Shown: positions 1 to 12,343 of the stretch, in pieces
How positions within the stretch are numbered: position 1 is the first letter of the stretch
Layout: every line of letters starts with the position of its first letter
Source: Hydrogenophaga sp.
GTDB lineage: Bacteria; Pseudomonadota; Gammaproteobacteria; Burkholderiales; Burkholderiaceae_C
Direction: 5' to 3'
Assembly: GCA_018993155.1 (NCBI GenBank)
Contig: JAGKSX010000069.1
Span: 1-64,000 of the forward strand
Length of the DNA stretch: 64,000 nt
Program-made: the position numbers and the translations under genes
The notes under the pieces: generated by a model
Seen by the model: only the letters and a program-made list of their open reading frames with translations
Databases searched by the model: none
Told to the model about the DNA's origin: nothing

Positions 1-1
1 C

Positions 2-634
2 GAGGGCACGGGCCTGGGGCTGGCGGTGGATGCGCTGCTGATGCAACGCCCCAGCGGCTGGAGCGTGCTGCTGCCCCTGCGCCCCTCGGCCGAGGCCACG
101 GGCGCGGACATCCCGGTGGCGGCCGTGCGCGAGGCGCTGGCCGGCAGCGGCGCGCTCTTCATCGACCTCAAGGGCGAGTTCGACACGCTGTACGGCGAGT
201 ACATCGACGAGGCCATCGTGCTCTCGCTCGCGGGCTTTATCGCCATCGTCGTGGCCATGGCCTTCGTGCAGCGCAGCGCGCTGCGGCTGGCCAGCGTGAT
301 GCTGCCGCTGGTGATGGCGGTGCTGGTCGTGACCGCCGGCCTGCACTTCTTCGGCGAGCGCCTGCACCTGCTGCACCTGGTGGGCATGCTGCTCACCGTG
401 GCCGTGGGCTCCAACTACGCGCTGTTCTTCGACCGCCTCGCGCTCGGCGAGGCGCTGGACGACGAGACCCTGCTGTCCATCGGCGTGGCCAGCTTCACCA
501 CCGTCATCGGTTTCGGTGTGCTGGCCTGGTCGACGGTGCCGGTGCTGCACGCCATCGGCGTGACGGTGGGGCCGGGCGCGGTGCTGGCCCTGGTGCTGTC
601 GGCGGCCTTCGCCGTCAGAAGGCCCGCGCCGTGA
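2..634 (+). CDS. MMPL/RND-type exporter, C-terminal part (5' end outside window)
   Basis: The frame is open from the first bases of the window, so the N-terminus is missing; about 210 residues are visible. A short periplasmic-type segment is followed by about five hydrophobic helices (visible residues roughly 70-90, 95-115, 121-145, 157-177 and 184-204). The stretch GSNYALFFDR sits at the position of the conserved GxDY(A/G) motif of the MMPL superfamily. It ends in a GTGA overlap with the next gene. In aryl polyene and xanthomonadin clusters an MMPL protein is the usual exporter of the lipid-linked pigment, and the downstream genes fit that setting. The family call is solid; the cargo is inferred from context. 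Confidence 0.8.
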   Translation, partial: EGTGLGLAVDALLMQRPSGWSVLLPLRPSAEATGADIPVAAVREALAGSGALFIDLKGEFDTLYGEYIDEAIVLSLAGFIAIVVAMAFVQRSALRLASVMLPLVMAVLVVTAGLHFFGERLHLLHLVGMLLTVAVGSNYALFFDRLALGEALDDETLLSIGVASFTTVIGFGVLAWSTVPVLHAIGVTVGPGAVLALVLSAAFAVRRPAP

Positions 635-1269
635 AGGCCTTGCGCACGGTCGGCAGCGCAGGCGCTGCGCCGCAGCTGCTCGTGATGCTGCCCGGCGTGG
701 CCATGCGGCCCGAAGAGCTCTTCGAGGCCGGTTTCTCCGACGCCATCGAACGCCGGGGCCTGGCGCTGGACCTGCTGGCGGTGGACCTCAGCGGGCTCGG
801 GCTCGACGCCGTCGACACCTGGGACGCCTTGCAGCACCAGGTGCTCACCCCGGCGCGCGAGCGCGGCGCGCGCGTGTGGCTGGGCGGCATCTCGCTCGGC
901 GGCATGGTGGCCATGGCGCACCTGGCCGCGCGGCCCGGCGTGGCCGACGGCTTGTGCCTGCTCGCGCCCTACCCGGGCAGCCGCCCCAGCGTGAATGTGA
1001 TCGAGCGTGCCGGGGGCATCGATCGCTGGCAGCCCAGCGCGCAGGACCTGCAGGACCCCGAGCTGCGCGTGTGGCAGTGGCTGCGGCAGCCGCCCGCCGA
1101 GCTGCCGGTGTTTGTCGGCCACGGCACGGAAGACCGGTTTGCCGCGCGCATCGCGCAACTGGCCGAGCGCTTCCCGGCCGCATCGCGCCACACCGTGCCG
1201 GGCGGGCACGACTGGTCGGCCTGGCGGCCGCTGTGGGCGCGCTTCCTCGATGCCGGGCACTTCCACTGA
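631..1269 (+). CDS. alpha/beta hydrolase of the aryl polyene cluster
   Basis: A 212-residue alpha/beta-hydrolase fold protein with no signal peptide. The nucleophile elbow GISLGG puts the serine at about residue 88. The acid is probably Asp168 in GHGTEDRF and the base His193 in GGHDW, so the full triad is present. The GTG start at 631 overlaps the MMPL stop by 4 bp, which implies coupling and fixes the start. A thioesterase or acyl-hydrolase role in releasing or editing the polyene chain would fit, but the sequence alone does not give the substrate. Confidence 0.75.
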   Translation: MKALRTVGSAGAAPQLLVMLPGVAMRPEELFEAGFSDAIERRGLALDLLAVDLSGLGLDAVDTWDALQHQVLTPARERGARVWLGGISLGGMVAMAHLAARPGVADGLCLLAPYPGSRPSVNVIERAGGIDRWQPSAQDLQDPELRVWQWLRQPPAELPVFVGHGTEDRFAARIAQLAERFPAASRHTVPGGHDWSAWRPLWARFLDAGHFH

Positions 1270-1270
1270 C

Positions 1271-2077
1271 ATGGCCACGAAGCGCTGGAGCCCATCCCCT
1301 TTCCTGAGCGCGAGCGCCGCCGTGCACGGCGCGGCCGTGCTCGGCACGCTGGCCATGCCGGCCGCCTGGCCCTGGGCGGTGGGGGCGCTGGTGGCCAACC
1401 ATGCGCTGCTCGCCGGTGCCGGCCTGTGGCCGAGTTCGCGCCTGCTCGGCCCCAACCTGATCCGCCTGCCCGAGGCCTCGGTGCAACGGCGCGAGGTCGC
1501 GCTGACCATCGACGACGGGCCCGACCCCGAGGTGACGCCGCGCGTGCTTGACCTGCTCGATGCGGCGAACGCGAAAGCCAGTTTCTTCTGCATCGGCCGC
1601 ATCGCCGAGCAGCACCCAGCCCTGTGCCGCGAGATCGTGCGGCGCGGCCACCGCGTGGAGAACCACGGGTACGCGCACAGCAATGCGTTCTCGCTGTTCG
1701 GTCCGGGCGCCATGCGTCGCGACATCGTGCGCGCGCAGGCCACATTGACCGAGATCACCGGCCAGGTACCGCGTTTCTTCCGCGCCACGGCCGGCCTGCG
1801 CAACCCCTTCCTCGACCCGGTGCTGCACGGCCTGGGCCTCGCGCTCGCCACCTGGACACGCCGTGCCTACGACACGCGCACCGGCGACCCCGAGCGCGTG
1901 TTCCAGCGCCTCTCGCAACACCTGGGCCCGGGCGACATCGTGCTGATGCACGATGGCCACTGCGCCCGCACCCCCGCTGGTGAACCCGTCATCCTCGTGG
2001 TGCTGCCGCGCCTGCTGCAGACCCTCGCCGAGCGCCAGTTTCCTCCCGTCACCCTGAACCAAGCCCTGCCCCCATGA
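1271..2077 (+). CDS. polysaccharide deacetylase (NodB homology domain)
   Basis: A 268-residue protein. The ATG at 1271 lies one base after the previous stop; the longer upstream open frame only overlaps the hydrolase gene. Two hydrophobic N-terminal segments (about 10-33 and 37-54) suggest membrane anchoring. The NodB domain spans about 72-262: motif 1 TIDDGPD (Asp81 catalytic, Asp82 metal), motif 2 with His132 and His136, and motif 5 LMHDGH with His227. Motif 3 is degenerate (RATAGLR rather than RxPxG). It probably removes an N- or O-acyl group from a sugar, perhaps on the glycolipid carrying the pigment. That substrate is an inference from the cluster. Confidence 0.8.
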   Translation: MATKRWSPSPFLSASAAVHGAAVLGTLAMPAAWPWAVGALVANHALLAGAGLWPSSRLLGPNLIRLPEASVQRREVALTIDDGPDPEVTPRVLDLLDAANAKASFFCIGRIAEQHPALCREIVRRGHRVENHGYAHSNAFSLFGPGAMRRDIVRAQATLTEITGQVPRFFRATAGLRNPFLDPVLHGLGLALATWTRRAYDTRTGDPERVFQRLSQHLGPGDIVLMHDGHCARTPAGEPVILVVLPRLLQTLAERQFPPVTLNQALPP

Positions 2078-2796
2078 GCCGCCAATCCGTCCAGCTGCTG
2101 GTCAACGAAGCCAGCCAGACCTTCCGCCCCAGCGGGCGCTTCGCCTACCACTACGCGCGCGGCAAGCTCGGTTACGACAGCATCTTCCACGAGATGCTGC
2201 GCCGCGGCCTGCTGCCCGAAGGCGGTCACTACCTCGACCTCGGCTGCGGCCAGGGCAGCCTGTTCGCCTGGCTGCTGGCCGCGCGCCGGCTGCACGAGCA
2301 AGGCCACTGGCCGGCGGGCTGGGCGACGCCGCCACAGCCCAGGAAGCTGCGCGGCATCGAACTGATGCAGCGCGACGTGGACCGCGCCGCGCGCGCCTTC
2401 GGCCCGCAGCACCCGGTGGTGCGGGTGGAGCAGGGCGACATGAACGCGGTCGACTTCGGCCGGCCCGATGCCATCCTCATCCTCGACGCGCTGCACTACT
2501 TCAGCCACGAACAGCAACGCGAGGTGCTCGCGCGCATCCGCCAGGCGCTGCCACCCGGGGGCGTGTTCCTCACCCGCATCGGCGATGCGGGCGCGGGCCT
2601 GACTTACCGCATCTGCAATGGCGTGGACCGCCTCGTCACCTACACGCGCGGGCACCGCCTGCCGCGCCTGTACTGCCGCACCCTGCAGGACTGGGTGGCC
2701 GAGCTGCAGCAGCTGGGCTTCGTGGTCGAGACCGAGCCCATGAGCGGGCGCAAGCCCTTCGCCAACGTGATGCTGGTCTGCCGGGTACCGCACTGA
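2074..2796 (+). CDS. class I SAM-dependent methyltransferase
   Basis: A 240-residue soluble protein with the SAM-binding motif I YLDLGCGQG at about 53-61. An acidic strand end follows (GIELMQRDV), and a motif-III-like segment ILILDALHYFS lies near 136-146. The ATG at 2074 overlaps the deacetylase stop in ATGA. Methyltransferases are recurrent in aryl polyene and xanthomonadin loci and can methylate the aryl head or a ring position. Substrate and position cannot be read from the sequence. Confidence 0.8.
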   Translation: MSRQSVQLLVNEASQTFRPSGRFAYHYARGKLGYDSIFHEMLRRGLLPEGGHYLDLGCGQGSLFAWLLAARRLHEQGHWPAGWATPPQPRKLRGIELMQRDVDRAARAFGPQHPVVRVEQGDMNAVDFGRPDAILILDALHYFSHEQQREVLARIRQALPPGGVFLTRIGDAGAGLTYRICNGVDRLVTYTRGHRLPRLYCRTLQDWVAELQQLGFVVETEPMSGRKPFANVMLVCRVPH

Positions 2797-2858
2797 GCGC
2801 CGGCGGTTTTCCTGCCACCATCTGAGACAATGCCCGACCCCGTTTTTGCCCCCTGCCC

Positions 2859-4055
2859 GTGAAGCCCCTGCTGCTGTCCGCCTACACCGCCACCACCTGC
2901 CTGGGGGTGGGAATCGATGCCCACCGAGAGGCCGTGCGCCAAGGCCGCAGCGGGCTGCGGCCCTGCCATTTCGAAACCGTGGAACTGCCGACCTGGGTGG
3001 GTGAGATTCAGGGCGTGGACGCCCAGGCGCTGCCCGCCTCGCTGGCCGCCTACGACTGCCGCAACCACCGCCTGGCCTTGCTCGCGCTGCGCGCCGACGG
3101 CTTCGAAGACCGCGTGCGCGCCGCCGTGCGGCGCCATGGCGCGGGCCGCGTCGGCGTCTTCATGGGCACCAGCACCTCGGGCATCCTGGAGACCGAACTC
3201 GCCTACCGCCGGCGCGATCCCGCCAGCGGCGCGCTGCCCGCCGCCTTCAGCTACGCCACCACGCACAACCCGTATTCGCTCAGCGAGTTCCTGCGCGAAC
3301 ACCTGGGCATCACCGGCATGGCCATGACGATCTCCACCGCGTGTTCGTCCAGCGCCAAGGTGTTCGCCGCCGCCGCGCGCCAGATCGAGCTGGGCACGAT
3401 CGACGCGGCCCTGGTCGGCGGCGTGGACTCGCTGTGCCTGACCACCTTGTACGGCTTCGCCTCGCTCGAACTCACCTCCGCCGAGCCCTGCCGACCCTAC
3501 GATGCGGGGCGCGACGGCATTTCCATCGGCGAAGGCGCCGCCTACGCGCTGCTGGAGCGCGGCGCTGACGCCCCCGACGCCCAGGCCGTGTGGCTGCTGG
3601 GCGCGGGCGAATCCAGCGACGCGCACCACATGTCCGCGCCGCACCCCGAAGGCCTGGGCGCGAAGCTGGCCATGGAGGCCGCGCTGCGCTCGGCGTCCTT
3701 GAACGCGGGCGACATCCACTACATCAACCTGCACGGCACGGCCACGCCGGCCAACGACAGCGCCGAAGGCAAGGCCGTGGCCGCCCTGTTCGGCGACCGC
3801 GTGCCGTGTTCGTCCACCAAGGGCGCCACCGGCCACACCCTGGGCGCGGCCGGTGCGGTGGAAGCCGTGTTGTGCGCGCTCGCCCTGGTCGACGGTGTCG
3901 TGCCCGGCAGCCCTGGCACGCGCGAACTCGACCCCGCCATCCCGCTGCGCTACCAGTTGCACGGCGAGCCGGCCGCGCTGCGCCATGCGCTCACCAACTC
4001 CTTCGGCTTCGGGGGCAGCAACTGCAGCCTGGTGTTCGGGAGGGCGCAGGCATGA
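2859..4055 (+). CDS. beta-ketoacyl-ACP synthase (KAS I/II type)
   Basis: A 398-residue condensing enzyme with all active-site elements. The nucleophile is Cys162 in STACSSS, His292 lies in LHGTATP, Lys321 and His326 in the STKGATGHT segment, and NSFGFGGSN near the C-terminus is the usual KS tail. It starts at GTG 2859 after a 62-bp gap, the only sizeable gap in the operon. It overlaps the next gene by 4 bp. As the active ketosynthase of the pair it should perform the decarboxylative Claisen condensations that lengthen the polyene on its acyl carrier protein. The carrier protein itself is not in the window. Confidence 0.88.
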   Translation: MKPLLLSAYTATTCLGVGIDAHREAVRQGRSGLRPCHFETVELPTWVGEIQGVDAQALPASLAAYDCRNHRLALLALRADGFEDRVRAAVRRHGAGRVGVFMGTSTSGILETELAYRRRDPASGALPAAFSYATTHNPYSLSEFLREHLGITGMAMTISTACSSSAKVFAAAARQIELGTIDAALVGGVDSLCLTTLYGFASLELTSAEPCRPYDAGRDGISIGEGAAYALLERGADAPDAQAVWLLGAGESSDAHHMSAPHPEGLGAKLAMEAALRSASLNAGDIHYINLHGTATPANDSAEGKAVAALFGDRVPCSSTKGATGHTLGAAGAVEAVLCALALVDGVVPGSPGTRELDPAIPLRYQLHGEPAALRHALTNSFGFGGSNCSLVFGRAQA

Positions 4056-4846
4056 ACGCACCCCTGACCGCCTGGATCACCGGGATCGGCCTGATCGCGC
4101 CGGGCCTGCCCGACTGGCCCAGCGCGCGCGCCGTGCTGCGCGGCGAGCAGGCCTGGGCGCCCGCGCCCTCCGTGCTGCCCACGCCCAGCCTGCTGCCGCC
4201 GGCCGAGCGCCGCCGCGCCAGCCGCGTGATCAAGCTCGCGCTGGGCATCGGCCTGGAGGCCGCGGCCGGCGCCGACGTGTCCACCCTGGCCACGGTGTTC
4301 AGCGCCTCGGGCTCGGACGGCCACAACTGCCACGCGTTGTGCGAGCAGCTCGCCACCGACGACCGCCACATCTCGCCCACGCGCTTCCACAACTCGGTGC
4401 ACAACGCGCCCGCCGGCTACTGGGGCATCGCCACGAAGTCGATGGCGCCGTGCCAGGTGCTGTGCGCCCACGACGGCAGCTTCGGCGCCGGTCTGATCGA
4501 CGCGCTCGGCCAGGTGGTGCTGGACCGCCAGGCCACGCTGCTGCTGGCCTACGACAGCGAGTATCCCGAACCCCTGTTCGCCAAGCGGCCCGTGCCAGAC
4601 TGCGCGGGCGTGTCCCTGCGGCTCGAGTGCGAGTCCTCGCCGCAGGCGCTGGCGCGCATCACCGTGCAGACCACCGAAGCGCCCGCGCAGCCCCTGGAGC
4701 AGGCCACGCTGGAACCCTTGCGCGCGGCCATTCCCGCGCTGCGATCGCTGCCGCTGCTGGAGCGCCTGGCGCAAGGCCGCAGCGGCGAGATCTGTATCGA
4801 CTACCTGCCCGGCCTGCGGCTCGCGGTCCGGATCGACCCCGCATGA
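4052..4846 (+). CDS. half-length ketosynthase-like protein (chain-length-factor type)
   Basis: 264 residues, about two thirds of a normal ketosynthase. The N-terminus WITGIGLIAPG matches the start of KAS proteins, but the nucleophile motif TACSS is replaced by LCAHD at about 137-141. The HGT and NSFGFGG segments are absent. Small proteins of this kind (the Ketoacyl-synt_2 family) typically sit beside the active ketosynthase in aryl polyene clusters and are thought to act as its partner. The ATG at 4052 overlaps the KAS stop in ATGA. It is probably catalytically inactive for condensation, although Cys138 lies one residue from the expected position. Confidence 0.78.
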   Translation: MNAPLTAWITGIGLIAPGLPDWPSARAVLRGEQAWAPAPSVLPTPSLLPPAERRRASRVIKLALGIGLEAAAGADVSTLATVFSASGSDGHNCHALCEQLATDDRHISPTRFHNSVHNAPAGYWGIATKSMAPCQVLCAHDGSFGAGLIDALGQVVLDRQATLLLAYDSEYPEPLFAKRPVPDCAGVSLRLECESSPQALARITVQTTEAPAQPLEQATLEPLRAAIPALRSLPLLERLAQGRSGEICIDYLPGLRLAVRIDPA

Positions 4847-5379
4847 GCGCAGCGCCGGGCCATTCCCAGGCAAGCTCGCACCGCAGCCCGCGGGGCGAAG
4901 GTACTCCAGTGAGCCCGGCCACGCTGAGCCACGAGGGCATCGCGGCCCGCATCCCGCACCAGGGCACCATGTGCCTGCTCGACGCCGTCACCGAGTGGTC
5001 GGCCGATCACGTGGTCTGCCGGGCGGTGGGCCACACCGACCCGGCGCACCCGCTGCGCGCGCACGGCCGCCTGGGCGCGGCCAACGGCATCGAGTACGCA
5101 GCCCAGGCCATGGCGGTGCACGGTGCCCTGGTGGCCGGCACCGAGGCCGCGCCGCGCCAGGGTTACCTCACCAGCGTGCGCGGCGCCACCCTGCACGTCG
5201 AGCGGCTGGACGACCTGCCGGGCCCGCTGGACGTGCGCGCCGAGCGCCTCTCGGGCGATGCCTCGAACGTGCTCTACCGCTTCACCGTGGACCACGCCGG
5301 CCGCTGCCTGCTCGAAGGGCGCGCGGCCGTGGTGCTCGACGCCGATTCCCTGAACCCCAACAAGGACCCGCAGCCATGA
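4843..5379 (+). CDS. hotdog-fold 3-hydroxyacyl-ACP dehydratase (ApeP/FabA-FabZ-like)
   Basis: 178 residues if read from the ATG at 4843, which overlaps the previous stop in ATGA. A GTG at 4909 (residue 23) would give a shorter protein lacking a polar leader. Hotdog features are RIPHQGTMCLLD at about 37-48 and GIEYAAQAMAVHG at 82-94, the helix where dehydratases of this group carry their catalytic acid. It would dehydrate the 3-hydroxyacyl intermediate to the trans-2-enoyl form. With no enoyl reductase in the operon, double bonds would be retained and the chain becomes a conjugated polyene. Confidence 0.78.
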   Translation: MSAAPGHSQASSHRSPRGEGTPVSPATLSHEGIAARIPHQGTMCLLDAVTEWSADHVVCRAVGHTDPAHPLRAHGRLGAANGIEYAAQAMAVHGALVAGTEAAPRQGYLTSVRGATLHVERLDDLPGPLDVRAERLSGDASNVLYRFTVDHAGRCLLEGRAAVVLDADSLNPNKDPQP

Positions 5380-6095
5380 AACGAGCCCTCGTGACCGGCG
5401 GCAGCGGCGGCATTGGCGCGGCGATCTGCCAGCGCCTGGCCTCCGACGGCCACCACGTGATCGTGCACGCCAACCGCCAGCTCGACAAGGCCCAGGCCAT
5501 CGTGTCGGCCATCCGCGAGCGCGGCGGCAGTGCCGAGGCCGTGGCCTTCGACGTGACCGAGCGCTTGGCCACCGCCGCCGCGCTGGCCACGTTGACCGAC
5601 GCGGGTGCGATCCAGGTCCTGGTGAACAACGCCGGCATCCACGACGACGCCGTGTTCCCCGGCATGAGCGGCGAGCAGTGGGATCGCGTGGTCGATGTCT
5701 CGCTCAATGGCTTCTACAACGTGACGCAGCCGCTTACCATGCCCATGATCCGGAAACGCTGGGGCCGCATCGTGAGCATCTCGTCCATCGCCGGCCTCAT
5801 GGGCAACCGGGGGCAGGTGAACTACGCGGCGGCCAAGGGTGCATTGCACGCGGCGAGCAAGTCGCTCGCGCTCGAACTCGCCAGCCGGGGCATCACCGTC
5901 AACGCGGTCGCGCCTGGCATCATCGAGACCGACATGATCGAAGGCGCCTTCGACGCCGAGGCCATCAAGCGCCTGGTGCCCATGCAGCGCGCGGGCCGCG
6001 CGGACGAGGTGGCCGAGCTGGTGGCGTTTCTGGTGTCCGACAAGGCGGCCTACGTGAGTGGGCAGGTGATCTCCATCAACGGCGCGATGTGCTGA
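5376..6095 (+). CDS. 3-oxoacyl-ACP reductase (FabG-like SDR)
   Basis: A 239-residue classical short-chain dehydrogenase. The nucleotide site is TGGSGGIG at 7-14, NNAG lies at 84-87, and the catalytic Ser136/137, Tyr150 and Lys154 (YAAAK) are all present. The C-terminal PGIIETDM segment is typical of FabG. The ATG at 5376 overlaps the dehydratase stop by 4 bp. Its job would be NADPH-dependent reduction of the 3-keto group after each condensation, completing the KAS-reductase-dehydratase cycle. It is distinct from the general fatty-acid fabG, which is not in this window. Confidence 0.88.
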   Translation: MKRALVTGGSGGIGAAICQRLASDGHHVIVHANRQLDKAQAIVSAIRERGGSAEAVAFDVTERLATAAALATLTDAGAIQVLVNNAGIHDDAVFPGMSGEQWDRVVDVSLNGFYNVTQPLTMPMIRKRWGRIVSISSIAGLMGNRGQVNYAAAKGALHAASKSLALELASRGITVNAVAPGIIETDMIEGAFDAEAIKRLVPMQRAGRADEVAELVAFLVSDKAAYVSGQVISINGAMC

Positions 6096-6105
6096 AGGCC
6101 TGCCT

Positions 6106-7215
6106 GTGAAACCTGAAAACCTGTCCCCGTTCATCCTGCTGTGCGGCCTCGCCGCAGGCCTGCCCGCACGGGCGCAGACCGAGACGCCCCCCACGCTGGA
6201 GGCCTGCGCCGCCATCGGTGCTGCGGCCGACCGCCTGACCTGTTACGACAAGCTCGCCGGGCGCGCGCCGGCGCCCACCGCCCCGGTGGCGCAGCAACCC
6301 TTCGGGGGCGAAGCGGCCCCGGCGGCCCCGGCCCCTTCACTGCTGTCGCAGTCGGGCGGGCAGCTGCCTCCGGCGGCCGCACCGGCCTCTTCCAGCAGCC
6401 TGCTGGCCAAGTTCTGGGAGCTGGACCCGGCCGACAAGCGCGGTGTGTTCAATTTCGTCGGCTACCACCCGAACTACGTGCTGCCCGTGCACGTCACCTC
6501 CCGCATCAACCGCTCGCCCCAGTCGCCGACGCAGGCGGCCGTGACTGCGCCCGATGACCGCCGGGAAGAGGCGAAATTCCAGCTGTCGCTGCGCACCAAG
6601 TTCCTGCAGGATGTCGGTTTCCCCGGGGGCGACCTGTGGGGTGCCTTCACCCTGCAGACGATGTGGCAGGTCTACAACCACGCCGACTCGCGGCCCTTTC
6701 GCAACACCGATTACCAGCCCGAACTGATCTACGTGGTGCCCACCGCGCCGCAGTTCCGCGCCTTGCCGCTGGGCTGGCAATGGCGCTTCACCCAGCTGGG
6801 CGTGGCGCACCAGTCGAATGGGCAGTCCGACCCCTTGTCGCGCAGCTGGAACCGCGTGTACCTCGGCGCCGGCTTCGAACGCGACAACTGGACCTTCACC
6901 ACGAAATTCAACCAGCGCCTGCGGGAGCGCGAAGAGACCGACAACAACCCGGACCTCATCGACTACCGGGGCAAGGCGGAGTTCAACCTCGGGTGGGCGA
7001 GCGGGGTGCACACCGCGTCGCTGGTGCACCGCAGCACGCTGCGGGGTGGCAACCGGGGGAGCACGTCGCTCGAATGGACCTACCCCGTGGTGCGCGACCA
7101 ACCCAATGGGCTGCGCTGGTACGTGCAGCTGTTCAGTGGTTATGGCGAAACGCTGTCGGACTACAACTTCCGCCAGACCAGCCTGGGCGCGGGCGTGAGC
7201 TTCCTGCAGTTCTGA
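6106..7215 (+). CDS. pldA: outer-membrane phospholipase A (PldA family)
   Basis: 369 residues from a GTG at 6106, 10 bp after the ketoreductase. A signal peptide ends near ARAQ (residue 24). A linker rich in Ala/Pro/Ser follows (about 52-100), then a beta-barrel domain. The OMPLA active site is clear: His235 and Ser237 in AHQSNG, with Asn249 in SRSWNR. The enzyme is a calcium-dependent outer-membrane phospholipase. The N-terminal segment with a Cys pair (LEACAAI, RLTCYDKLAG) is an addition seen in other betaproteobacterial secreted proteins. It may be only a passenger of the pigment operon, or it may remodel the outer leaflet where the pigment lipid sits. Confidence 0.85.
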   Translation: MKPENLSPFILLCGLAAGLPARAQTETPPTLEACAAIGAAADRLTCYDKLAGRAPAPTAPVAQQPFGGEAAPAAPAPSLLSQSGGQLPPAAAPASSSSLLAKFWELDPADKRGVFNFVGYHPNYVLPVHVTSRINRSPQSPTQAAVTAPDDRREEAKFQLSLRTKFLQDVGFPGGDLWGAFTLQTMWQVYNHADSRPFRNTDYQPELIYVVPTAPQFRALPLGWQWRFTQLGVAHQSNGQSDPLSRSWNRVYLGAGFERDNWTFTTKFNQRLREREETDNNPDLIDYRGKAEFNLGWASGVHTASLVHRSTLRGGNRGSTSLEWTYPVVRDQPNGLRWYVQLFSGYGETLSDYNFRQTSLGAGVSFLQF

Positions 7216-7223
7216 GCCTGCCG

Positions 7224-8429
7224 TCAGGAATGGCGCAGCGCGCTGGCGCCCCGCGCGGCGCCGCGCAGCTTGGGTTCCACGATAGGCACCGTCAGCATGG
7301 TGCTGGCCACCGCCATCAGCAGCAGCGCGGTGAAGGTCTCGCTGGTGATCACGTGCTTGTCCAGCAGGATGTTGGCGAAGATGATCATGATCAGCGCCTT
7401 GGTCTGCAGCAGCCAGCCGATCAGGGAGGCCTCGCCCGGCGGCCACTTCAGCACGCGGCCGGCCAGGTGCACACCGATCAGCTTGCCGCTGACCGAGGCC
7501 AGCAGCAGCAGGGCCGCCATGCCGAACACCGCCGCACCGCCCACGTCCCAGTTGGTGCGCAGGCCGGTGGAGAGGAAGAACACCGGCATGATCACCAGCA
7601 GCACGTGGTGGCGCAGCTGGTCCAGCTTGTCCTGGTCGAACCAGTCAGCGTCCATCACCACACCCGCCAGGAAGGCGCCCACCATGTAGTGCAGGCCCGA
7701 CCAGTCGGCGCCGAACGCGCAGACCGCGAGCCAGATCAGCGCGACGGCCCAGCGGTCGGCTTCGGCCAGGCGGCGCATCAGGTGGCGGAAGGCCCAGCTC
7801 AGCACGACGAAGGCGAGGATGAAGGCGCCTTGTTTGCCCACGCGCTGCCAGTCCATCAGGATCAGCGCGAGCACGCCCCAGATCGCGATGTCGTCCACGC
7901 TCGCATAGCGCAGGATGCGCTGGCCCAGCGGCTGGCGCAGCAGCTGCAGCTTCTCCATCAGCAGGATCAGGATGGGCAGCGCGGTGACCGCGCAGGCCAT
8001 GCCCACGCCGAGCACGAACTGCCAGGGCCGGGCAGACGCGCCCATCCAGCCTGGCATGCCCAGCATCACCAGCGCGGCCGCGCTGCCCAGCAGCAGGGGT
8101 GCGCCCAGGGCCAGACCGGCGGTGATGCCGCTCTCGCGCCGGTGTTTCCAGGCCTGGCGCAGGTCGAGTTCGATGCCCGCGATCATCACGAACAGCATCA
8201 CGGCCCACCACGCGATGCCGTTGAGCGACTGGATCACCGCCGGGTTGAAGACGAAGGCGTGGTATTCGGGGAAGGCCTTGCCCAGCACGCCGGGGCCGAG
8301 CAGGATGCCGGTGACGATCTGCACCACCACCAGCGGCGCCCAGTAGTCGGTGCGCCCCAGCCGCCAGATCAGCCACGGCACGGTGAAGATGATCGCCATG
8401 GCGATCAGGAAGATCTCGGTGGTGTTCAT
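7224..8429 (-). CDS. cation:proton antiporter (CPA2, KefB/Na-H exchanger domain)
   Basis: A 401-residue polytopic membrane protein with 11-13 hydrophobic segments. GILLGPGVLG near residue 40 and IAGIELDLR near 85 are characteristic of CPA2 exchangers. No C-terminal nucleotide-binding RCK domain is present. It is the last gene of the minus-strand operon, 13 bp downstream of the glycosyltransferase and only 8 bp from the convergent phospholipase gene. The transported ion is unknown. Its presence in a pigment operon is unexpected, though membrane-embedded polyenes have been linked to ion leakiness and oxidative protection. Confidence 0.82.
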   Translation of the reverse strand: MNTTEIFLIAMAIIFTVPWLIWRLGRTDYWAPLVVVQIVTGILLGPGVLGKAFPEYHAFVFNPAVIQSLNGIAWWAVMLFVMIAGIELDLRQAWKHRRESGITAGLALGAPLLLGSAAALVMLGMPGWMGASARPWQFVLGVGMACAVTALPILILLMEKLQLLRQPLGQRILRYASVDDIAIWGVLALILMDWQRVGKQGAFILAFVVLSWAFRHLMRRLAEADRWAVALIWLAVCAFGADWSGLHYMVGAFLAGVVMDADWFDQDKLDQLRHHVLLVIMPVFFLSTGLRTNWDVGGAAVFGMAALLLLASVSGKLIGVHLAGRVLKWPPGEASLIGWLLQTKALIMIIFANILLDKHVITSETFTALLLMAVASTMLTVPIVEPKLRGAARGASALRHS

Positions 8430-8442
8430 GGCGGTGCGGCCG

Positions 8443-9201
8443 TCAGCCGGTCAGGCGCCGCCAGAGCAGCAGGGGAAGGCGCAACACGAAGCCGGTGAAC
8501 AGGCGTGTGTGCATGCCGCTGAGCAGCAGGTTGTCGCGCAGGTAGTTGAAATGCGAGACGCCACCCTCTTCGGGCGTGAAGTAGCGCACCGGGGCGTCGA
8601 TGTTGATCGGCCGCACGCCGGCCCAGCTCAGGCGCACCACGGCCTCGGGGTCGAAGTCGAAGCGGCGCATGAAGCGCGTGCCGTGCATCACGCGCATCAG
8701 CGGCGCGATCGGGTAGACGCGAAACCCGTAGAGCGAATCGCCGATGCCGACGCCCAGCGTTTCCAGGTTGGCCCAGCCGTTCGAGAGCTTTCGGCCCAGC
8801 ACGCGCACCAGGGGCGCTTCGGGGCCGAACACCGGCTTGCCCAACACCATGGCCTCGGGCTCGGCCTGCGAGGCGGCCATGAAGTCGGGGATCAGGGTTT
8901 CGGGGTGCTGGCCGTCGGAGTCCATGGTCAGGGCGTGCGTGAAGCCCTGCTGTGCCGCGACCGTGATGCCGTGCAGCACGGCCGAGCCCTTGCCCTGGTT
9001 CTCGGACATCACCAGCACGCGCAGGCCCGGGTCCTTGGCGGCCTCTTCGGTCAGCCAGTCGGCCGAGCCGTCGGTGCTGCCATCGACCACCACCCACACG
9101 GGCGTCCATTGGGCCCGCGCGGCGCGCACCGTGGCCAATACCTTGCGGCCCGGGTTGTAGCTGGGAATGAGGACCAGGTGCGTGGTGCTGGAAACGGGCA
9201 T
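8443..9201 (-). CDS. family 2 glycosyltransferase
   Basis: 252 residues with a GT-A fold. LVLIPSYNPG at the N-terminus, VVVDGSTDGS at 37-46 and the metal-binding DSD at 94-96 in LTMDSDGQHP are typical of dolichyl-phosphate-mannose-synthase-like GT2 enzymes. There is no clear transmembrane segment. It lies 3 bp from the acyltransferase gene. Aryl polyene loci of the xanthomonadin type often pair a GT2 with an acyltransferase, so transfer of a sugar to the polyene carrier or lipid is a reasonable inference. Donor and acceptor are not deducible. Confidence 0.82.
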   Translation of the reverse strand: MPVSSTTHLVLIPSYNPGRKVLATVRAARAQWTPVWVVVDGSTDGSADWLTEEAAKDPGLRVLVMSENQGKGSAVLHGITVAAQQGFTHALTMDSDGQHPETLIPDFMAASQAEPEAMVLGKPVFGPEAPLVRVLGRKLSNGWANLETLGVGIGDSLYGFRVYPIAPLMRVMHGTRFMRRFDFDPEAVVRLSWAGVRPINIDAPVRYFTPEEGGVSHFNYLRDNLLLSGMHTRLFTGFVLRLPLLLWRRLTG

Positions 9202-9204
9202 GGA

Positions 9205-10002
9205 TCAGGCGGCGGCGGACGACGCCATCGGTGGGGAAGAAGGGTCGAGCATGGCACGGAAATAGTCTTCCAGCTCCTGCGTGAAGGCGCCCGGGTTGCG
9301 TGGCGCCTCGAAACGCCGGCCCAGGCGGATGCGGCAGGTCAGCGGCAACAGGGGGCGGCGCCAGATCGGCCAGCCCTTGCCCAGGTAGGGGCTGGAAAAC
9401 TCCACGATCAGCGTCTGCACCGGCACCCCGGCGCGGGCGGCGATCAGCGCGGTGGAGCGCGAGAGCGGGTTGATCGGGTTCGCCGGGTAGCCGCGCGTGC
9501 GCGTGCCCTCGGGGAAGATCAGCACCTGCGCGCCCTGTTGCAGCTCGCGGCGGCAGTTCAGCACGGCGGTGAGCAGGTTGTCGTTGCGCACGTAGCGCGC
9601 CAGGCGCGCGCCCGCGCCGAGCAGCGGGTTGTCCATCAGGTCGGCCTTCATGAAGCAGACCGCGTTGGGCAGGCGCGAGGTGATCAGCACGGCGTCGAGC
9701 AGCGAGGGGTGGTTGGCCGCGATGACCATGGGCCCCTGGTCGCGCAGCGCATCGATCTCGGACAGGTCGAAGCGGCAGGCGCACAGCAGGCGCAGGATGC
9801 CGACGTACAGGCGGAAGCCGCGCATGATGGCCTGGCGGCCGAGCCAGCGGCCCAGCGGCCGGGGCAACACCGGGTACAGGGCCAGCGCCGGTGGCGTCCA
9901 GCTCAGGCACACCAGCGCCAGCGCGCTCAGGCCCACCACCATCGCGAGGTGCTCGTACACGCTCCACAGCAGCGAGGTCGGGCGGGTCGCCGCCGTGCTC
10001 AT
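9205..10002 (-). CDS. lysophospholipid acyltransferase-like protein (PlsC domain)
   Basis: 265 residues. Two N-terminal hydrophobic stretches (about 12-35 and 64-78) precede the LPLAT domain. The catalytic NHPSLLD motif has His98 and Asp103, and FPEGTRTRG at 163-171 is the glycerol-phosphate or acceptor site. The ATG at 10002 overlaps the chorismatase stop in ATGA. In xanthomonadin and aryl polyene systems such an enzyme is proposed to transfer the polyene acyl chain from the carrier protein to a lipid or glycolipid. That role fits well here but is inferred. Confidence 0.83.
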   Translation of the reverse strand: MSTAATRPTSLLWSVYEHLAMVVGLSALALVCLSWTPPALALYPVLPRPLGRWLGRQAIMRGFRLYVGILRLLCACRFDLSEIDALRDQGPMVIAANHPSLLDAVLITSRLPNAVCFMKADLMDNPLLGAGARLARYVRNDNLLTAVLNCRRELQQGAQVLIFPEGTRTRGYPANPINPLSRSTALIAARAGVPVQTLIVEFSSPYLGKGWPIWRRPLLPLTCRIRLGRRFEAPRNPGAFTQELEDYFRAMLDPSSPPMASSAAA

Positions 10003-11009
10003 GGCGACCCCAGCGGGTGGATGGCCTGGCTCTCGATTTCCAACAGCAGGTCTGCGCGGCAGATGTCGGCCTGCACGCACACCAGCGAAGCGCCGCGCAG
10101 CAGCGGCTGCAGCGTGCGCTGCACGGTGTCCACGTCGGCGGCGTGGCGCACGTAGGCGCGGTGGCGCAGGCCGGTGAACGAAAACGGCCGGCCCGAGCGC
10201 GCCACGCGGTTGGCCTCCTGCACCAGGCACTCGATGTTGCGCACGGTCTCCTCGCACTGCGCGGCCACATCGCCGGGATGCACCGTGGCGTGCCCCACGA
10301 TGCTGGCCGTGCCCGAGACGAACAGCGCCTCGCGCCCGCGCGGGTAGGCCAGCGCGGCGCGCGAAAAGGTGGGCGCGCGCGGCCCGTACTGCGAGGGGTA
10401 GCGCCAGGCGCTAACCTGGCGCGGGTTCTCCAGCGGCACCACCGGCGAGCGGCCTGCCAGGAAGGCCACCGAGAGCGGGCCACCGGCCACGCCGATGGCG
10501 CAGGCCGCGGGCACCTGGCCGCCGGTCTCGCGCTGCGCGTGCACGAAGGCCTCGTAGCGGCCCAGGTTGAACTGGCGGTAGCGCTCCAGCCCGTGCGACT
10601 CGCCGTTGATGTCGGCCATGTAGTTCCAGACCCGCCACAGGTGCGGCGTGCCCTGCGCGCGCAGCAGGCGGAACAGGCGCTCGTAGAGCAGCCGGCTCGC
10701 CGTCTGCAGCGGCGAGCCGCCCTCGGCCGTGGGGGCGTGTTCGGCCTCATTCAGCTCGATCACGCCATAGAGCAGTTCGGCGTTGCGGCGCCAGTGGATG
10801 CCCTTGTCGCGGCCTTGGCGCAGTGGGCCGTCGACGCGCCACTGCTCGTGCGCCGCTGGCGCGCCCGCAGGCAGCACGGGCGCGCGCAGGGGTTGGTGCG
10901 GCCAGGCCATCGGGCCCAGGTCCTTCTGTTCCCCGATCGACATGCCGCCCAGCACCTCGCCGTCGGCGGGCGCGGCGAGCACGCGGCTGATGGTGTGTTG
11001 CAAACTCAC
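9999..11009 (-). CDS. xanB2: chorismatase / 3-hydroxybenzoate synthase (XanB2-like)
   Basis: 336 residues from a GTG at 11009 that overlaps the flavoprotein stop in GTGA. It shows the two-lobed FkbO/Hyg5/XanB2 architecture. In the C-terminal lobe are LFVSGTASIVGH (229-240), ATVHPGDV, and a Rid-like helix with Cys252. Near the end, DLLLEIES supplies a likely catalytic Glu324. RVWNYMADIN at 126-135 is a family signature. XanB2 proteins hydrolyse chorismate to 3-hydroxybenzoate (and 4-hydroxybenzoate in Xanthomonas) plus pyruvate. This would supply the aromatic starter of the pigment and marks the cluster as xanthomonadin-type rather than an ammonia-lyase-primed aryl polyene. Confidence 0.85.
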   Translation of the reverse strand: MSLQHTISRVLAAPADGEVLGGMSIGEQKDLGPMAWPHQPLRAPVLPAGAPAAHEQWRVDGPLRQGRDKGIHWRRNAELLYGVIELNEAEHAPTAEGGSPLQTASRLLYERLFRLLRAQGTPHLWRVWNYMADINGESHGLERYRQFNLGRYEAFVHAQRETGGQVPAACAIGVAGGPLSVAFLAGRSPVVPLENPRQVSAWRYPSQYGPRAPTFSRAALAYPRGREALFVSGTASIVGHATVHPGDVAAQCEETVRNIECLVQEANRVARSGRPFSFTGLRHRAYVRHAADVDTVQRTLQPLLRGASLVCVQADICRADLLLEIESQAIHPLGSP

Positions 11010-12343
11010 GGCGTGCGGGCCAGGGCGGTTTCGTCCGCAGGCCGGATGTTGACGCGGCGCTTGCGCCAGGCGTTGAACGCGCGGCGGGGCTGGGTGAGGT
11101 TGGCCAGCAGGTACAGGGCCTTGAAAGCCAGCATCGACCGCCCGATCGGCGCGCCGCCATACACGTCGCCGGCCAGCGTGGACAGCAGGGCTTCTTTCAC
11201 GCGGAAGATGTTGCGTGGGCCCATGAAGAAGTCGCGCATGATGGGGTTGGTCACGCGGTAGATGAACCACGAGAACGCCTTGGGTCCGTGGCGGCTGTGG
11301 CGGTCGAAACGCCTGAGCGCCGCGCGCGCCTGCGCGGGCTGGCGCAGGCAGGTGTCGATGGTCTGCGCGCCGAGCTCGCCGCCGTTCATGGCCAGCCACA
11401 CGCCCGAGGAGAACACCGGGTCGATGAAGGTGTAGGCGTCGCCCAGCATCAGGTAGTTGTCGCCGTGGTTGCGTTGCGCGGCGTAGGAGAAGTTGCCAGT
11501 GGCCTCCACCGGTGCCACCCGGTGCGCGTCCTTCAGGCGCTCGGCCAGGCCCGCGCAAGTGGCCACGTTGTCCATCATGAACTGCTCCATGCTGCGGCCG
11601 GCGCGCGCCTTCATGTGGTACGGCCAGGTCACCATGCCCACGCTGGTGACGCCGCCCGTGAGCGGGATGAACCAGAACCAGCCGTGGTCGAACCAGAAGA
11701 TGGTGATGTTGCCCTCGGCCTCGCCGGTGTTGCGGCGCGCGTTCGCGAAGTGGCCGTAGACCGCCGCGCTGTTGTGGTGGGGGTTGCGTTCCTTGATCTT
11801 GAAACGGGATGCAAGAAATGTGTCGCGGCCCGAGGCGTCCACCAGGAATTTCGCGTTCCACACGCTGGTGCGGCCGTCGTCGTGCTCGGCGTGCACGCGC
11901 ACCGTGCGGTCGGGCAGGAACTCCACCGAGCGTGCCTTGCAGCCTTCGTGCACCTCCACGCCTTTTCGTGCGGCGTTGCGGAACAGGATCTCGTCGAACT
12001 CGGCGCGCTTGACCTGGTAGGCGTAAGGCATGGACTTGTCCCAGGCGTCGGCGAACTCGAAGGTCTGGGTGTGCGCGTGGTGCGGCGAGACGAACTCGGC
12101 GCCCGGCTTGTGCTGCCCGATGGCGCGCACCTCGTCGGCCACGCCCAGGCGCTCCAGCAGTGGCAGGTTGGCCGGCAGCAGGGATTCGCCGATGTGAAAG
12201 CGCGGGTGGTGCGCCTTCTCGAGCATCACGACGCGGTGGCCCTTGCCGGCCAGCAGCGGAGAGACGGTGGAGCCGGCAGGCCCGCCACCGATCACAAGCA
12301 CGTCACAGGTCTGGTGGTCGGCGCCTGGATGGTCTGGGTTCAT
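11006..12343 (-). CDS. FAD-dependent halogenase-like oxidoreductase of the pigment cluster
   Basis: 445 residues. The Rossmann motif GGGPAGS is at 19-25, and GESLLP at 52-57 is typical of halogenases and related flavoproteins. Lys79 lies in QHKPGAEF, the region of the lysine that handles hypohalous acid in flavin-dependent halogenases. WFWFIP at 222-227 fits the WxWxIP halogenase motif. It is the first gene of the minus operon and overlaps the chorismatase by 4 bp. Xanthomonadins are brominated aryl polyenes, so ring halogenation is plausible here. Related reductases of the geranylgeranyl-reductase type share part of these motifs, so halogenation is likely rather than certain. Confidence 0.75.
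   Translation of the reverse strand: MNPDHPGADHQTCDVLVIGGGPAGSTVSPLLAGKGHRVVMLEKAHHPRFHIGESLLPANLPLLERLGVADEVRAIGQHKPGAEFVSPHHAHTQTFEFADAWDKSMPYAYQVKRAEFDEILFRNAARKGVEVHEGCKARSVEFLPDRTVRVHAEHDDGRTSVWNAKFLVDASGRDTFLASRFKIKERNPHHNSAAVYGHFANARRNTGEAEGNITIFWFDHGWFWFIPLTGGVTSVGMVTWPYHMKARAGRSMEQFMMDNVATCAGLAERLKDAHRVAPVEATGNFSYAAQRNHGDNYLMLGDAYTFIDPVFSSGVWLAMNGGELGAQTIDTCLRQPAQARAALRRFDRHSRHGPKAFSWFIYRVTNPIMRDFFMGPRNIFRVKEALLSTLAGDVYGGAPIGRSMLAFKALYLLANLTQPRRAFNAWRKRRVNIRPADETALARTP

Follow-up and report, generated by a model that had tools for sequence, protein, structure and literature searches.

The first 12,343 bases of the DNA analysed here (the window, a 64,000-nucleotide stretch from Hydrogenophaga sp.) carry genes that read like part of an aryl polyene pigment cluster, the outermost of which is cut at base 1. 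This raises the questions of whether the rest of the cluster exists in the genome, what the whole would produce, and how its genes came to be so tightly coupled. The window corresponds to bases 1–64000 of contig C143 (79,825 bases; JAGKSX010000069.1), in an assembly of 4.9 Mb and 176 contigs, and its base 1 is base 1 of the contig, i.e. a contig end. Throughout, G000 designates the genome analysed, C95 and C143 its contigs, and other G and L numbers other genomes and fetched loci; protein families were assigned by Pfam and NCBIfam domain searches.

Gene content and the left half of the cluster

We are highly confident that these genes belong to an aryl polyene pigment cluster of the xanthomonadin/arcuflavin type, carried by a Hydrogenophaga-like betaproteobacterium and divided between two contigs, because the core gene set is found over C143 and C95, relatives with the cluster on one contig show the same gene order, the two contig ends meet within one gene, and the parts match those of the arc genes of Azoarcus. 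The original prediction had also proposed a xanthomonadin-type cluster, and in this it is supported.

The window encodes an elongating ketosynthase (2859..4055, plus strand; scoring above the cut-off of NCBIfam subfamily PRK09185, with TACSS and both His motifs) paired with a half-ketosynthase resembling a chain-length factor (CLF; 4052..4846, plus strand), the latter assigned to Ketoacyl-synt_2 by Pfam only, without an NCBIfam match, and with no TAC motif found. These are followed by a 3-hydroxyacyl-acyl carrier protein (ACP) dehydratase (4843..5379, plus strand), which had no Pfam or NCBIfam match at E 0.001 and was identified, as arcI, by homology (79 of 80 related loci) and position, and by a FabG-type 3-ketoacyl-ACP reductase (5376..6095, plus strand; NF004200 above cut-off). 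ACPs and an acyl-adenosine monophosphate (AMP) ligase are located on C95, which is apparently linked to C143 through a split exporter gene, and the set is completed by a LolA-like carrier, an MMPL-type exporter, acyltransferases and a family 2 glycosyltransferase (GT2).

The C-terminal 210 residues of the exporter (2..634, plus strand), a fragment without Pfam or NCBIfam match, correspond to residues 570–778 of the exporter of the relative L005 (81% match), and residues 1–479 are encoded by C95:1–1437 on the minus strand, where this N-terminal part matches Pfam MMPL. From this split gene, and not from a sequenced junction, we infer that C95 and C143 adjoin. Moving inward, C95 encodes the N-terminal exporter part, LolA, an LpxL-like acyltransferase, a FabA-like dehydratase (above the Pfam FabA cut-off and just below that of an ApeI-like model), the AMP ligase, a membrane protein with no family match in Pfam or NCBIfam, an ACP, a FabF-like ketosynthase with AACASS by eye, and a second ACP; both ACPs carry the DS motif. 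L005 has the same gene order with the cluster on one contig, and L006 agrees as far as its locus extends. The original prediction, which placed the left part outside the window, had made its case depend on finding an ACP or an adenylation enzyme in the 15 kb upstream; ACPs and AMP ligase are there, provided that the contigs are adjacent, and the possibility that the left part is absent from the genome was rejected on finding it at the end of C95. The cluster being split by the assembly, a search limited to the window or to its contig would judge it incomplete. On the opposite strand of C95, adjoining the first pigment ACP, we observed a gene for a membrane protein read as PAP2-phosphatase-like (L096:7257–7934), with no NCBIfam match.

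Fourteen genes occupy 2–12343, nine on the plus strand (2–7215) and five on the minus strand (12343–7224), running convergently as originally described. Each has an intact reading frame apart from the exporter, truncated by the contig end, and the genes named in the original prediction are at the positions it gave; domain searches concur, with the gaps noted above. Also on the plus strand are an alpha/beta hydrolase (631..1269; Abhydrolase_6, Pfam), a polysaccharide deacetylase of NodB fold, annotated like arcN (1271..2077; Pfam and NCBIfam), an S-adenosylmethionine methyltransferase annotated like arcM, a candidate aryl O-methyltransferase (2074..2796; Pfam), and a phospholipase A1 (PldA, 6106..7215; PF02253, 294 bits). 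The minus strand encodes a Na+/H+ antiporter (7224..8429; Pfam Na_H_Exchanger, CPA2 model under its cut-off), the GT2 (8443..9201; Pfam), a PlsC-type acyltransferase (9205..10002; Pfam), an FkbO/Hyg5/XanB2-family chorismatase (9999..11009) and a flavin-dependent halogenase-like protein (11006..12343). Overlaps of 4 bp had been counted at eight junctions; we found them at seven of the 12 same-strand joints within the window (exporter/hydrolase, deacetylase/methyltransferase, ketosynthase/CLF, CLF/dehydratase, dehydratase/ketoreductase, halogenase-like/chorismatase and chorismatase/PlsC-type), as well as at four of the eight joints of the C95 pigment genes. Elsewhere in the genome, at approximately 64–127 kb of contig C139, eight ketosynthase matches fall within open frames of 1478–4231 codons and probably belong to a large cluster for a modular polyketide synthase.

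A query with the ketosynthase retrieved 512 related loci in named genomes, and we compared the best 80, the nearest of which are from Comamonadaceae/Hydrogenophaga. The ketosynthase is in all 80 by construction, and counts of outer genes are lower bounds, as many loci end at a contig end or at 10 kb. The deacetylase and the half-ketosynthase were found in 80 loci, the dehydratase in 79, the C-terminal exporter part in 76, LolA in 73, the AMP ligase in 70 and the ketoreductase in 68, followed by GT2 (59), the PlsC-type acyltransferase (36), the methyltransferase (30), the halogenase-like gene (28), the chorismatase (25) and the hydrolase (23). Rarer were the antiporter (15, of which 11 are distant, with 26–32% identity, and 10 of those on the opposite strand), the extra ketosynthase of C95 (14) and its ACP (five), and PldA was in none. 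Within the genus, the ketosynthase occurred in 39 of 67 genomes (E up to 1e-120). Among the 20 best of these 39, counting L159 and L161, likely duplicates of L005 and L006, the core and the hydrolase were present in 20 of 20 loci, the extra ketosynthase with its ACP in 19, the methyltransferase in 15, the antiporter and the halogenase-like gene in 13 each, the chorismatase in six and PldA in three, with some loci ending before the outer genes.

PldA was consequently rejected as a conserved pigment gene, being in 0 of 80 related and 3 of 20 same-genus loci; it is an accessory gene in a variable gap between the convergent operons (6096–7223 in the window). The same gap holds PldA in three relatives (L162, L164 and L165), lying about 4 kb beyond the ketoreductase gene in L162 and being followed in L165 by a 42-residue second copy of ketoreductase sequence, which suggests arrival by recombination at the ketoreductase gene. 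PldA matches were found in 106 of 200 family genomes, the present one included. In L005, the gap contains a gene reading like a cytosine DNA methyltransferase.

Chorismatase, halogenase-like flavoprotein and the predicted pigment

Membership of the chorismatase in its family is supported by its score with Pfam PF21168 (133.6 bits, cut-off 27) and by matches to three PDB sequences (E 2e-47 to 1e-44). In the alignment with PDB chains (5ag3 is presumably Hyg5), it has Cys at the position occupied by Cys in the Hyg5-like chain and by Ala in FkbO, a residue shared by all 25 copies aligned. This Cys steers the product of the chorismatase. Its presence favours 3-hydroxybenzoate (3-HBA) as the predicted product here, with the caution, given in the arcuflavin report, that this product is not predictable from alignment alone (PMC3949708). 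The apparent duplicates L159 and L161 were removed from this alignment and from that of the halogenase-like protein.

Of 39 aligned copies of the halogenase-like protein, 34 have K at the position matching the halogenase Lys and five have a gap there, and the non-variable positions of WxWxIP and F-x-D-P-x-F-S-S-G are each kept in 37 or 38 of the 39. The conserved Lys and these two motifs are halogenase signatures. Its top PDB matches were halogenases, with one flavoprotein/dehydrogenase (3nix) in the first seven, and no NCBIfam family exceeded its cut-off among the 25 of 53 shown, the best being CmlS (207 bits, cut-off 900). We rate the chance that the flavoprotein halogenates the pigment at somewhat better than even. 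The competing explanation, which we hold to be a serious though lesser possibility, is that the protein at 11006–12343 is not a working halogenase and either hydroxylates or oxidises the ring or the polyene, or is idle, the pigment being non-halogenated. Its scores below every NCBIfam cut-off shown agree with this, as does the proposal that arcuflavin is a nonbrominated aryl-heptaene despite the presence in its cluster of arcA, annotated as a halogenase (PMC3949708); the retention of Lys and motifs across the aligned copies and the predominance of halogenases among the top PDB matches argue against it. Among betaproteobacterial clusters, the motifs of the halogenase-like genes are conserved, yet arcuflavin, the characterised product of one such cluster, was proposed to lack bromine.

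The following predicted pathway carries over enzyme steps from characterised relatives. The chorismatase would convert chorismate to 3-HBA, which the AMP ligase would load onto an ACP; the extra ketosynthase of C95 may start the chain, as an ApeR-like part, and the ketosynthase/half-ketosynthase pair would elongate it, with the ketoreductase and the two dehydratases generating a double bond in every unit. The methyltransferase would cap the ring hydroxyl, the flavoprotein would halogenate ring or chain, or not, and the acyltransferases and GT2 would link the polyene to a carrier, either lipid or sugar. Transport to the outer membrane, where the pigment could act as a photo- and oxidant shield, would then fall to LolA and the MMPL exporter. 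In vitro work with the enzymes of the aryl polyene (APE) system of another organism, APE-Xd, describes ApeR as needed for initiation, ApeO/ApeC for elongation with chain length factor, and ApeQ, ApeI and ApeP as ketoreductase and dehydratases (PMC8253772).

Several points weigh against assigning the cluster to a xanthomonadin/arcuflavin-type pigment. Around 90 exporter residues fall in the assembly gap between C95 and C143; the chorismatase scored 236.8 with TIGR04444, under the NCBIfam cut-off of 325; not every same-genus locus has this gene (6 of 20) or the halogenase-like one (13 of 20), some of these loci ending earlier; and there is little support for the extra ketosynthase as initiator, since E. 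coli continued to produce the main APE lipid after apeR was deleted (PMC8253772). Moreover, the pigment itself is a predicted product.

We consider it unlikely that the polyene would be joined to a dialkylresorcinol, as a flexirubin/arcuflavin-like hybrid, instead of forming a plain xanthomonadin-like ester. Azoarcus, Dechloromonas, Variovorax and Sideroxydans are described as pairing such clusters with dar genes (PMC3949708), but no dar-like gene was noticed on reading the first 16 kb of C95, a weak point in that no dedicated search for darA/darB was made; besides pigment genes, this region reads as encoding a PAP2-like protein, a chemotaxis receptor, a cupin-like protein and amidohydrolase-type genes. 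That the genes instead serve specialised type II fatty-acid or envelope-lipid synthesis is very improbable, for although the ketosynthase, ketoreductase and dehydratase families alone cannot separate lipid from pigment synthesis and the pigment is a predicted product, the half-ketosynthase, chorismatase, AMP ligase, LolA, MMPL and NodB proteins jointly match characterised pigment clusters. An aryl polyene pigment thus remains by far our preferred product.

A dispersed repeat between stop and start codons

The joint between the CLF and dehydratase genes of the pigment operon is occupied by a copy of a dispersed, 65–66 bp stop-to-start repeat (4843..4908, plus strand). The initial ATGA of the repeat contains the CLF stop codon, a GTGA follows its end, and the first 22 dehydratase codons derive from it; the dehydratase proper likely starts at GTG 4909, 66 bases later, behind GAAGG. 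The 4-bp overlap between the two genes is therefore due to the repeat copy beginning with ATGA.

Window positions 4840–4925 match 11 other sites in the genome, one of them only partly. An 18-base pattern from the repeat start has 12 exact occurrences in the genome, compared with none for the reversed pattern, and 16 compared with one when a mismatch is allowed; it is found in 50 of 66 same-genus and 51 of 200 family genomes, the present one included. We examined 87 exact copies (in L189–L200, L205–L262 and L263–L281): 12 from G000, eight from G214, 11 from G215, plus single copies from 28 more loci of the genus and 28 of the family, excluding L211 and L212 from the one-per-genome group because G214 and G215 had already been sampled.

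By a simple ad hoc pattern, the body of the repeat was of the same kind as the window copy in 60 of the 87. A coding open reading frame (ORF) of at least 80 codons ended exactly at the TGA of the first ATGA in 49 of these 60, as compared with 44 of the 417 ATGA sites that the loci of G000, G214 and G215 contain, repeat copies included. The next coding start lay 65 or 66 bases on in 38 copies, and none was found for seven; the leader ORF had exactly 22 codons in 28 of the 60, and in other copies, as here, it runs in frame into the next gene. The remaining 27 copies comprised 14 with a hairpin-like body and 13 with other sequences; a coding ORF ended at the TGA in eight of the 14 and in seven of the 13, and some of the 13 are likely chance matches inside genes. 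A looser count placed gene ends at 55 of 70 repeat copies and at 192 of 915 ATGA sites. At the centres of, for example, L207, L225, L238, L244, L254, L255, L261 and L262, the 5' part of the repeat continues into a G+C-rich hairpin-like stretch; such copies are perhaps a related end-of-gene element.

The repeat varies in position among orthologous operons. At the CLF/dehydratase joint, a full copy is missing from all 17 same-genus relatives shown (of the 20, with L159 and L161 counted, the searched motif did not match in L163, L167 and L175), and a shortened copy could be read there in L158. The element lies between the membrane protein and AMP ligase genes of the same operon in L006/L161, between the ketosynthase and half-ketosynthase genes in L162 and L166, and at 2611 in L157, and L170 has two tandem copies 66 bases apart. 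Among the best 80 loci, only L006 has a convincing copy; other scan matches were judged degenerate (L169, L172 and L174) or due to chance (L066 and L078).

As in miniature inverted-repeat transposable elements (MITEs), copies are dispersed and present or absent at orthologous sites. However, three folded copies were no better than shuffles (z 0.23, 0.64 and 2.01), and the repeat was not classed as a MITE because it lacks the marked secondary structure of these elements; for the same reason, RNA structure was rejected as the cause of its conservation. A 4-bp duplication would agree with the ATGA found at each end, although GTGA closes many of the copies. We tentatively propose, as a possibility falling somewhat short of an even chance, that the repeat is a small mobile cassette that inserts at stop/start overlaps, duplicating ATGA and rebuilding translational coupling with an added leader peptide, and that its spread has taken it into operons of Hydrogenophaga-like bacteria and of further genera in the family. 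Such a cassette would start with an ATGA whose TGA is the stop of the preceding gene, provide a leader ORF of 22 codons or else extend the next protein in frame at its N terminus, and end in a Shine-Dalgarno-like stretch right before the ATGA/GTGA start of the next gene; its insertion would account for part of the tight coupling of the operon. Alternatively, the repeat may have spread by recombination together with genes. If the mobile cassette is real, it would give bacteria a means of acquiring leader peptides and readjusting the coupling of genes within operons that stay intact.

Judging from paper listings, no described intercistronic or Comamonadaceae repeat in the open-access literature searched fits this element. 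Like the small mobile repeats RU-1/2/3 of enterobacteria, as these are described, it is short, dispersed and has open reading frames that can contribute to genes; unlike them (103–168 bp), it is 65–66 bp long and occupies the interval from a stop codon to a start codon (PMC2759123).

Comparison with known pigment clusters

The mix of genes had been regarded as not textbook, a view that does not survive comparison with the arcuflavin clusters of Azoarcus BH72, whose Table 1 holds nearly the same parts: arcA halogenase, arcB XanB2-type chorismatase, arcD acyltransferase, arcE glycosyl transferase, arcG Na+/H+ antiporter, a reductase, a dehydratase, a protein with a ketosynthase N-terminal domain, a ketosynthase, arcM methyltransferase, arcN polysaccharide deacetylase and arcP exporter (PMC3949708). 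By annotation, the two systems share the ketosynthase, ketosynthase-domain protein, ketoreductase, dehydratases, XanB2-type chorismatase, halogenase-like gene, antiporter and glycosyltransferase, together with acyltransferases, methyltransferase, deacetylase, exporter, LolA, AMP ligase and ACP. PldA and the alpha/beta hydrolase are the only genes whose names do not appear in that table, and the hydrolase occupies the position of arcO (hypothetical), an equation made by place and not by sequence. In Azoarcus, ArcB makes 3-HBA and ArcT adenylates it, arcK and arcT mutants are colourless, and the pigment contains a methionine-derived methyl group (PMC3949708). The arc genes lie in two unlinked loci, with separate dar genes, whereas here there is apparently one cluster, with an extra ketosynthase and ACP pair at its left end and PldA in its middle; the genes that we identified include no arcC (MltA-interacting protein), no arcF and no arcW/X regulators.

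Going by published descriptions, the xanthomonadin cluster of Xanthomonas shares the ketosynthase/CLF, ketoreductase, dehydratase, acyltransferase, xanB2 and a halogenase gene (PMC3949708, PMC3691225), the latter two being reported within the cluster in two Xanthomonas species (PMC3691225). The yellow pigment cluster of Lysobacter enzymogenes has in common a type II polyketide synthase with unusual CLF, the XanB2 homologue ORF5, an outer membrane lipoprotein carrier protein, ketoreductase and dehydratases, and differs, as described, in having no halogenase gene (PMC3691225). Hydrogenophaga sp. SL48, of the same or a near genus, has an antiSMASH Region 1 reported as arylpolyene, known by type only, and some of its regions are said to resemble known clusters such as Xanthomonadin I (PMC12993520). 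Set beside these systems, the present cluster is ordinary and its layout not unusual, adding one more betaproteobacterial case.

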